From the NCBI GenBank assembly GCA_903858935.1, contig CAIOKO010000155.1, forward strand, positions 1-64,000: 64,000 nt of DNA, read 5' to 3'. Below are positions 41,260-46,053 of the stretch, piece after piece; the stretch's first letter is position 1; the number at the start of each line of letters is the position of its first letter. The notes under the pieces are model-generated. The model saw only the letters and a list, made by a program, of their open reading frames with translations, was not told where the DNA came from and made no database searches. Origin of the DNA: an uncultured Schlesneria sp. (GTDB lineage Bacteria > Planctomycetota > Planctomycetia > Planctomycetales > Planctomycetaceae). Position numbers and translations under genes: made by a program.

Positions 41260-41688
41260 TCACGGGGTTTGCGTCCAGTTCTCAAACCTCAGGCCAGGAA
41301 CTTGTGAAAAATCAACCGAATTTCGTGTGAGGAGTAACGCATTTTCTGTCAGACAAGACGCTGCGATCTTCAAATCCATCGTGCCGATTCGAATTTTCTG
41401 TTGCCTGAGCTCCTGAAATTTGTCTGCCGCTGCCGACGAAAAATGCAAAAGAGGTATCGAACAATAAAGTTGAATATGCCGTTGCAGACGAGAATAGATT
41501 TCGACTTGTTTCGTTACTTGCGGGACTTTTGCGAGGTATGCCATCCAACCTCGCATTTGTTCTTCGTAGCTGACGATTGAAACAACAATGGTCGTGTCAA
41601 CCGTAGCCGCAAGCCTTTCTCGAAGAGCGGCCGATTCATCACTTCCCCACTCAAGGCAGCTCAGGTGATCCGTGTCGAGGACAATCAT
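41260..41688 (-). CDS. PIN-domain toxin (VapC-like)
   Basis: A 142-residue PIN-domain ribonuclease of the type II toxin-antitoxin kind. Acidic catalytic residues are Asp5/Asp7 in IVLDTDHLSCLEWG, a Glu in VSYEEQMRGW, the Asp in RIGTMDLKIAA and the late Asp in TRNSVDFSQVPGL. The ATG at 41688 overlaps the antitoxin stop by four bases (ATGA), typical of these modules. The likely role is cleavage of RNA when the antitoxin is lost. No promoter separates the two genes. Confidence 0.9.
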   Translation of the reverse strand: MIVLDTDHLSCLEWGSDESAALRERLAATVDTTIVVSIVSYEEQMRGWMAYLAKVPQVTKQVEIYSRLQRHIQLYCSIPLLHFSSAAADKFQELRQQKIRIGTMDLKIAASCLTENALLLTRNSVDFSQVPGLRFENWTQTP

Positions 41689-41891
41689 TCGGCGGATTCC
41701 TCACCACGATCCGCTTGACGTTCTTCTTGCGCTAGTTTCATCGCTTCTGAGTAAATCAGATCGTCCTTGAACGCACCGGAAATTCGCTCCCACCATCGTG
41801 TTTCGCTTGTGTCGTTTCCGGTCACTTTTTCGAGGCGGCGCATTTTTTGTTCGAGTAGCGTCAAACGCTCTTCAACACGATCTGCCGACAT
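41685..41891 (-). CDS. Antitoxin of the PIN-domain module
   Basis: A 68-residue protein directly upstream of the toxin and overlapping it by four bases. It has an N-terminal coiled coil, SADRVEERLTLLEQKMRRLE, then a Trp-Trp segment (ETRWWERISGAF) and an acidic, Gln/Glu-rich helix at the C-terminus, which probably clamps the toxin. No ribbon-helix-helix or AbrB DNA-binding domain was recognised. The ATG at 41891 follows AAGGAG by seven bases and is chosen over 41921. Confidence 0.82.
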   Translation of the reverse strand: MSADRVEERLTLLEQKMRRLEKVTGNDTSETRWWERISGAFKDDLIYSEAMKLAQEERQADRGEESAE

Positions 41892-42104
41892 TGATTGGCT
41901 CCTTTGTGTCAAAACCTTCATGATTGTTGAGAGTTTCAGTCGTCTTGCAAAGATTGAAATCGGAATTTCCGTTGTTACGGTCGACGATGTGTTACTCTTC
42001 GCATGGGATTACGGGACGTCTAAGGATGTCTATTGTGGAAAAACTGCATCGCTGACTTCGCATCATGTGCCGTTCCCAAAGGATCTTTTCCAAAGGAATG
42101 CGCC

Positions 42105-44463: not shown

Positions 44464-44826
44464 ATGAAGTTTTCTATCAAGGAAGACCAGGGGCAGGTCG
44501 TGCAGGTCGCCATCAACGGTTGTTTAGTACAATCTGACATCGCGCCTCCTCTGGACCCATTTCGGGCAATTTTGGGGCCAAATGCCTATCAGAAGACAGT
44601 TCTGCTAGACATGCAGGATTCGAATTATCTGGATTCGATGTGCATTGGCTGGCTACTTGGTTCGCACAAGCGTTTTCGAGAACAGGGTGGGAAGCTGGTG
44701 ATTCATTCCTTGCAACCCGTTGCATCAAACGTGATTTCACTGCTCAAGCTGAATAGTATTTTTCAAATTGCAGCCGATACGACAACCGCTTTGCAACTTG
44801 CCCAAGGGCAAGGAGAGGTGGTCTAA
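44464..44826 (+). CDS. STAS domain protein (anti-sigma-antagonist-like)
   Basis: A 120-residue single STAS domain. The order is strand, strand, TVLLDMQDSNYLDSMCIGWL, helix, GGKLVIHSLQPVASNVISLL, and a C-terminal helix, as in SpoIIAA/RsbV relatives. The loop NYLDSMCIG carries the Ser position that is phosphorylated in classical antagonists. Its stop (TAA) is directly followed by the ATG of a GspE/PilB-type ATPase with no spacer, so the two are translated together. It may modulate the ATPase or a partner; this is inference. Confidence 0.88.
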   Translation: MKFSIKEDQGQVVQVAINGCLVQSDIAPPLDPFRAILGPNAYQKTVLLDMQDSNYLDSMCIGWLLGSHKRFREQGGKLVIHSLQPVASNVISLLKLNSIFQIAADTTTALQLAQGQGEVV

Positions 44827-46053
44827 ATGGGGTACGATGGTCGCTTCTCGGGTGATTTTTTTACAAACATGGCTCCTGGCGAGGTTCTGTCTGCCATTAT
44901 TGAGCGGGCGGCAGACCTGCATGTGAGTGACCTTTTCCTCTTGGCTGAAGAAACAGGCCTTCGCGTCGCTTTTCGGCGCATGGGCGGGATCGAAACTGTG
45001 GCAGCCCTGCCGCTGGAAACCGGACGTTCTGTCGTCACGTTGCTGAAGGCGGAAGCGGGCATCGATTTGGGTGACCGACGCAGGCCGCACGAAGGACGTC
45101 GTATTCAGACCGTTGGTGACCGCGTGATCGATCTGCGCATCAACATCATTCCGACGCTCTACGGTGAAGACGTCACCGCTCGGCTGCTTGACCGGAAATT
45201 TGGACTGCGAACGTTAGAACAAATCGGTTTAACTCGGATTGAGTTAAACAAGATGCAGGCAATGTTAAGCAATCCCAGCGGTCTGATTCTGGTGACTGGG
45301 CCGACGGGGACCGGGAAGACGACGACGCTTTATGCTGCGATTCAGTACTTGAATGATGGTACTCGGAAAATAAACACGCTGGAAGATCCGGTCGAATATG
45401 CCGTGGCGGGGTTACGCCAATCCCAGGCGAATACCAAGATCGGACTCGATTTTCCCGAACTTCTTCGCAATGTTCTGCGACAATCGGCCGACGTGATTAT
45501 GATCGGTGAGATTCGCGACGAAGAGACAGCTGCAACGGCCGTTCGTGCGGCGAACAGCGGAACTGTTGTACTTTCAACATTGCATTCGCCAGTCGCCGCT
45601 GGTGCGGTGCAAAGCATGGCCGCTTTGGGAGTCAATCGTTATTTCCTCTCAAACTGTCTGCTCGGTGTCGTTGCCCAGCGATTGGTTCGGACTCTCTGCC
45701 CAAAATGCCGTGTCGCTTATGACATCAGTGAATCACCCGATACGTTTAGCGATGTCCAATCATTCCTTGAGCCTGGATTCGGGACATATATTTTCGGGCC
45801 CGGTTCTTGCGAAGCCTGTTTGCAGCAGGGTTATTCGGGACGAACGGCGATTGTCGAGCTGATGGTATTCAATAAGGCTCTCAGGCAATTGGTTGCCAAA
45901 GGCTGCAGCAGTGAAGAACTTCAGACGTTCGCCGTTCAACAGGGAATGCTTGAATTCCGCCGGTCAGCGATGGTCAAAGTTGCGATGGGCGTGACCAGTA
46001 CCGAAGAAATACTTCGGGAATTGCCTACCGATCAGTTGGGCCTGGACCTGTAA
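44827..46053 (+). CDS. GspE/PilB-type secretion ATPase without the N-terminal domain
   Basis: A 408-residue hexameric ATPase of the type II secretion/type IV pilus assembly family, normally powering pseudopilus or pilus assembly at the inner membrane. The N2-like region RAADLHVSDLFLLAEE precedes a RecA-like domain with Walker A TGPTGTGKTTTLYA, Asp box NTLEDPVEYA, Walker B VIMIGEIRDEETA and His box STLHSP. A four-Cys zinc site is present (CPKC and CEAC). It lacks the roughly 150-residue N1 domain of full GspE/PilB. The upstream gene is a STAS domain protein. No pilin, platform protein or secretin is nearby. Confidence 0.93.
   Translation: MGYDGRFSGDFFTNMAPGEVLSAIIERAADLHVSDLFLLAEETGLRVAFRRMGGIETVAALPLETGRSVVTLLKAEAGIDLGDRRRPHEGRRIQTVGDRVIDLRINIIPTLYGEDVTARLLDRKFGLRTLEQIGLTRIELNKMQAMLSNPSGLILVTGPTGTGKTTTLYAAIQYLNDGTRKINTLEDPVEYAVAGLRQSQANTKIGLDFPELLRNVLRQSADVIMIGEIRDEETAATAVRAANSGTVVLSTLHSPVAAGAVQSMAALGVNRYFLSNCLLGVVAQRLVRTLCPKCRVAYDISESPDTFSDVQSFLEPGFGTYIFGPGSCEACLQQGYSGRTAIVELMVFNKALRQLVAKGCSSEELQTFAVQQGMLEFRRSAMVKVAMGVTSTEEILRELPTDQLGLDL

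Follow-up and report, generated by a model that had tools for sequence, protein, structure and literature searches.

A STAS-Domain Gene Abutting a GspE/PilB-Class ATPase Gene in Planctomycetes: A Candidate Partner-Switch-Controlled Ring ATPase

Results

Gene Pair and Its Junction

Two genes lying head to tail on the forward strand were found in the window, which means here the whole 64-kb stretch of DNA that was analyzed. They encode a small STAS-domain protein and an ATPase of the GspE/PilB class, and the locus contains the following features:

44464–44826, + strand: gene for a STAS-domain protein (120 aa, SpoIIAA/RsbV-like)
44635–44637, + strand: codon TCG of Ser58, aligned with the SpoIIAA S58 phosphoserine (DS of the DSSG loop, profile alignment)
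44810–44818, + strand: Shine-Dalgarno-like AAGGAGAGG for the ATPase, located within the STAS gene and read directly from the sequence
44824–44829, + strand: abutting stop and start codons TAA-ATG, by direct reading of the sequence
44827–46053, + strand: gene for a GspE/PilB-class ATPase without N1 domain (408 aa, N2D + CTD)
45298–45321, + strand: Walker A GPTGTGKT (motif table)
45493–45519, + strand: Walker B/catalytic Glu box VIMIGEIRD (motif table)
45697–45819, + strand: Zn-type tetracysteine CPKC...CEAC, typical of assembly ATPases (motif table)

The TAA codon of the STAS gene (44824–44826) is directly followed by the ATG codon of the ATPase gene (44827–44829), leaving a spacer of 0 nt and both genes in the same frame. 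A G/A-rich stretch comparable to the Shine-Dalgarno-like element was also observed ahead of the STAS stop codon in same-genus relatives. When start codons were assigned by rule, stop and start overlapped or were at most 5 nt apart in 28 of 29 STAS–ATPase pairs, the exception being G402 with 83 nt. We read this arrangement from the sequences as a conserved, tight translational coupling that yields two separate proteins. The earlier note had described the STAS protein as translationally fused to the ATPase; its coordinates were exact and the stop codon does abut the start codon, but "fused" overstated what is a coupling only. A read-through fusion product was rejected because the genes are out of frame in G007, where the STAS stop and ATPase start overlap as TGATG, and out-of-frame overlaps occur in other relatives. 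Comparison with two same-genus relatives gave dN/dS values of approximately 0.06 for the STAS gene and 0.02–0.03 for the ATPase gene, indicating strong purifying selection.

Domains and Motifs of the ATPase

The ATPase was matched by Pfam T2SSE (E = 2e-98) starting at residue 20. The NCBIfam GspE model aligned only from its profile position 113 and the PilB model only from position 187, so that the N1 domain was assigned as absent and N2D and CTD as present, in agreement with the initial reading. In assembly ATPases, N1 is the part on which c-di-GMP, PilZ, and the stator dock. The protein missed the NCBIfam equivalog cut-offs of both GspE (366 vs. 630 bits) and PilB (339 vs. 676 bits) as well as the NCBIfam cut-off of ComGA (219 vs. 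300 bits). Its profile matches in the PDB were GspE, PilF, and PilB, and the best Foldseek matches were PilF and PilB. The Walker A, Asp box, Walker B, and His box were all retained together with the tetracysteine, and the window ATPase looks catalytically intact as far as such motifs indicate.

The Zn-type tetracysteine has been reported as essential in PilB-class ATPases. It is lost in 11 paired ATPases, which are those of G028, G037, G412, G373, G361, G367, G376, G325, G462, and G537 and of the second pair of G001/G004. Separately, the kinase-linked ATPases of G325 (L224, 7718–9034) and G537 (L312, 6453–7709) exhibited the Asp boxes ENPVEY and ESPVEY, respectively, a His-to-Asn replacement in the His box, and the unusual Walker A sequences GPTRCGKT and GPSGCGKT; hydrolysis is perhaps impaired in these two proteins.

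The STAS Protein and Its Serine

The 120-aa protein was assigned to the STAS domain by Pfam (E = 8e-10), and its profile matched SpoIIAA/TM1442. The structure model was obtained with a pLDDT of 85, for which the top Foldseek matches were RsbV and SpoIIAA, with MlaB also among the matches. A Ser is located at the SpoIIAA S58 position in 32 of 32 paired STAS proteins and is unchanged even where the adjoining residues vary, while the preceding Asp is found in 30 of 32. The window protein hence combines the STAS fold with a Ser at the DS phosphosite, as a partner-switch antagonist does. A Ser phospho-switch had been supposed near residue 59; the phosphorylatable Ser is indeed invariant and aligned with SpoIIAA S58, and its correct number is 58. 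The loop following this Ser reads DSMC in the window genus vs. DSTG or DSSG in the kinase-linked members.

These data bear on one alternative, in which the STAS protein would be a constitutive structural subunit, that is, a stand-in for N1 or an MlaB-like stabilizer that is not phospho-switched. MlaB provides a precedent (PMC7367683), a STAS domain could offer a docking surface replacing the missing N1, and the window lineage is without a linked kinase and now has the DSMC loop. The invariance of the Ser amid varying neighbors speaks against this alternative, however, as does the linkage of kinase and phosphatase genes in relatives described below, making a purely structural subunit very improbable.

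Conservation and Phylogeny of the Pair

Conservation across planctomycetes, which the earlier note had proposed as a check, was borne out. The pair is present in 9 of 15 same-genus genomes with an ATPase identity of 86–98%. When 392 genomes of the phylum were scored, 13 of them contained an ATPase of at least 499 bits and the remainder scored at most 420 bits; a STAS gene was located directly upstream in 12 of the 13. STAS matches above 80 bits numbered 12 among the 392 genomes, occurring in exactly those 12 and always directly upstream of the ATPase. At the family level (170 genomes), the top STAS match was obtained in 15 genomes at 17 loci, all 17 of which were beside the ATPase. Named relatives with the pair include Planctomycetota, Phycisphaeraceae, and Planctomycetaceae MAGs (L064, L065, and L067). 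A maximum-likelihood tree of 86 ATPases placed the paired ATPases in a single clade (support 100/100), separate from the other sampled planctomycete and non-planctomycete T2SSE ATPases. Three members without an adjoining STAS gene (G015, L066, and G308) are nested inside this clade, and their lack of STAS is most simply explained by losses. The STAS and ATPase distances were correlated (r = 0.39 for 16 representatives), with 1 of 5000 permutations giving a value as high. Wide occurrence across the phylum was also considered for a second type of pair, represented by the G340/G354 ATPase, and was rejected, since close relatives were found in only 2 of 392 genomes.

It may be argued that the STAS protein works in an ordinary partner switch for a sigma factor or another target and shares no more than a transcript with the ATPase, without any contact between the two proteins. 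STAS-only proteins are usually anti-sigma antagonists, several having unknown targets (PMC8256260), and the three subfamily ATPases without a STAS neighbor fit such an account. On the other hand, the top STAS matches never occur apart from the ATPase, the two proteins have diverged in a correlated manner, and the pair is retained without a kinase in most loci, so that a mere co-transcription of this kind appears unlikely.

Kinase and Phosphatase Genes Linked to the Pair

Most STAS–ATPase loci keep the pair without any kinase gene, which is thus the optional part. In G001, G004, G325, G462, and G537, a gene for a kinase composed of a receiver domain and a C-terminal HATPase_c_2 (RsbW-like) domain is located immediately upstream on the same strand, this assignment resting on a Pfam run for G001, G325, and G462. 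The kinase-linked pair of G001 and G004 is a second pair within the window's own genus. These five loci form one supported ATPase clade and therefore count as one gain. A REC + RsbW-like kinase gene is also a divergent neighbor of the pair in G452 and lies 3.4 kb off in G485. In G325, the order of genes is kinase, STAS, ATPase, and an FHA-GAF-SpoIIE phosphatase downstream; in G340, it is STAS, ATPase, FHA-GAF-SpoIIE phosphatase, and RsbW-like kinase. G340 belongs to a different lineage of the phylum, and its divergent ATPase falls outside the main clade. The kinase linkage in G452/G485 and in G340 is separate from the five-locus gain, which amounts to few independent events. In G485, an ORF that by eye resembles an FHA + Ser/Thr protein kinase (L313, 3768–5000, − strand) was also noticed directly after the STAS–ATPase pair.

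No RsbW-type kinase gene is linked to the pair in the window or adjacent to it in the window's lineage. The organism's own genome encodes five REC-HATPase_c_2 proteins, which are 39–47% identical to the linked kinases and none of which is linked to the pair, together with at least six SpoIIE phosphatases. Elsewhere in this genome, at G000:C102 (L269, 4977–6792, − strand), a REC-HATPase_c_2 kinase gene overlaps a gene for a STAS-DinB fusion, which is read as another unstudied, putative partner-switch pair.

Surroundings, Pilin Genes, and Platform Genes

By reading, the neighbors of the pair are an esterase-like protein upstream and an Mrp/ApbC-like ATPase downstream on the opposite strand. A normal N1 domain on another adjacent ORF would have changed the picture; none is encoded by the ORFs adjoining the pair, as judged by reading these neighbors. 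The remark that no pilin genes are close also held, as neither a type IV pilin signature nor a GspF-like ORF was detected anywhere in the 64-kb window, and pilin or platform genes are not systematically linked to the pair in relatives either. Genes for platform proteins do occur in other parts of the organism's genome, where solitary GspF-type genes without a neighboring ATPase are located at G000:C65:47619–48857 and G000:C136:29218–30300. Homologs of both were present in 24 of 24 genomes tested. A specific co-occurrence of the pair with these two platforms was rejected, because the 24 genomes include ones without the pair.

Several other genes were noticed. On the − strand of the window, 41260–41921 contains overlapping small ORFs of 78 and 142 aa, the second of which reads like a PIN-domain toxin; judged by eye, they are possibly a VapBC-like toxin–antitoxin pair. 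The 567-aa product of G000:C183:3649–4755 (L158, 3595–5298, − strand) is a Usp-T2SSE fusion by Pfam, adjoining further Usp genes and two-component genes, and G000:C119:13454–14269 (L159, 5784–8288, + strand) belongs to a protein of 834 aa that carries an FHA domain at its N terminus and a T2SSE ATPase at its C terminus. An anti-phage or viral origin of the STAS–ATPase pair was rejected, since PADLOC gave no meaningful match and PHROG gave only ATPase families of unknown function.

A further alternative is that the ATPase is no longer a motor and works as a ring-shaped signaling or scaffold ATPase, whose state would be read by the STAS switch or would control it. The ground for considering this is that pilin and platform genes do not travel with the pair, that the Asp and His boxes are altered in G325 and G537, that 11 members have lost the Zn cysteines, and that the organism's own genome contains the Usp and FHA fusions of T2SSE ATPases. 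In addition, a Myxococcus study reports a signaling role for PilB (PMC5544727). The window ATPase, however, retains every catalytic box and the tetracysteine, strong purifying selection acts on it, its closest relatives of solved structure are the motors PilB, PilF, and GspE, and platform proteins do exist elsewhere in the genome; a pure signaling role for it is accordingly rather unlikely.

Discussion

Comparison with Known Systems

The window ATPase shares with PilB, GspE, and PilF of type IV pili and the T2SS the N2D + CTD core, the Walker A and B motifs, the Asp and His boxes, the CxxC...CxxC motif, and the fold, but it has no N1 domain and no linked pilin or platform genes, and its partner is a STAS protein. 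The comG pilus gene cluster includes ComGA, and PilT is also an N1-less ATPase. ComGA is a PilB-like ATPase without N1 (PMC6370729), to which the window ATPase is similar in both respects; it differs in having no linked pilin or platform gene and in scoring below the NCBIfam ComGA cut-off. In the PilB–PilZ–FimX system, a small protein likewise controls the PilB motor (PMC8389850), although PilZ is not a STAS protein and binds the N-terminal domain of PilB that is absent here.

On the STAS side, SpoIIAA and RsbV share the fold, the size, and the DS phosphosite with the window protein, and RsbW-like kinase and SpoIIE phosphatase genes are linked to the pair in its relatives. The obligate genomic partner is, however, a T2SSE ATPase, and no sigma factor came to notice when pair loci were read. 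MlaB is a STAS protein that binds the ATPase MlaF, with its phosphosite-equivalent Thr52 near the center of the interface and with T52E reducing the binding (PMC7367683). In this case too, a transport ATPase has a small STAS protein as its partner, but MlaF is an ABC ATPase and not of the GspE type, phosphorylation of MlaB is unproven, and the window pair has relatives with linked genes for a kinase and a phosphatase. HmpV, encoded with HmpU and HmpW in a hormogonium motility locus of Nostoc punctiforme, is also a partner-switch STAS protein, for which no pairing with a PilB-type ATPase is reported (PMC8256260).

Proposed Mechanism

A STAS-regulated ATPase with a Ser switch is the best reading of the locus, because the cognate types of kinase and phosphatase are found in the same gene cluster in relatives. 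The further claim of a STAS-regulated secretion motor went too far in its second half, for which no linked pilin or platform gene speaks. We are slightly inclined to accept the STAS protein as a regulatory subunit that works under partner-switch control on a PilB/GspE-like ATPase without N1. Both genes would then form one regulatory unit, in which the SpoIIAA/RsbV-like protein is the small subunit of a presumably hexameric ATPase, and its docking would be set by the phosphorylation state of Ser58. By analogy, the unphosphorylated STAS protein would be the binding form, and the docked protein would set either how active the ATPase is or whether it is recruited to a membrane platform whose gene lies elsewhere. 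A Ser kinase of the RsbW type, often receiver-fused, and an FHA-GAF-SpoIIE phosphatase would shift the STAS protein between bound and free states, so that partner switching determines the amount of free STAS. In the window organism, kinase and phosphatase would act in trans, and the ATPase may drive a filament or secretion machine as its target. Counting against a regulatory subunit are the missing adjacent kinase and the DSMC loop in the window genus, together with the three clade members that lack a STAS neighbor, the few independent events behind the kinase linkage, and the platform genes, which show no specific co-occurrence with the pair. An AlphaFold2 prediction of STAS-TAA-ATPase as one chain gave a confident ATPase and a STAS part with pLDDT mostly below 60, the STAS-only alignment rows being misaligned.

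More generally, there is an even chance that partner switching by a REC-RsbW kinase, an FHA-GAF-SpoIIE phosphatase, and a STAS protein directly gates a GspE/PilB-class ring ATPase as a recurrent device of planctomycetes, which would act in post-translational control of a pilus- or secretion-type motor, or in signaling where the catalytic boxes are altered.

Novelty and Biological Meaning

The arrangement had been called new, which can be maintained for the combination. In the literature searched, which was mostly open access, no report was found that joins a STAS partner switch to an ATPase of the GspE/PilB class, and STAS goes unmentioned in a 2024 review of PilB cofactors (PMC11656802). Its parts are already known singly: N1-less PilB-like ATPases from ComGA, motility-linked STAS partner switches from Hmp, and a STAS protein on an ATPase from MlaB.

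Several non-canonical STAS proteins have been described without a known target (PMC8256260). The conserved pair and the clustered kinase and phosphatase genes point to a concrete candidate for such a target, namely, a ring ATPase of the PilB/GspE class. Most known cases of partner switching concern sigma factors. If the proposal is true, bacteria may regulate a pilus- or secretion-type motor by the type of circuit whose best-known role is the control of sigma factors, and an assembly-type ATPase would be under signal control without N1, the domain that responds to c-di-GMP and PilZ elsewhere. Control of this kind could be one reason for the excess of such ATPases over pilus loci in planctomycetes.
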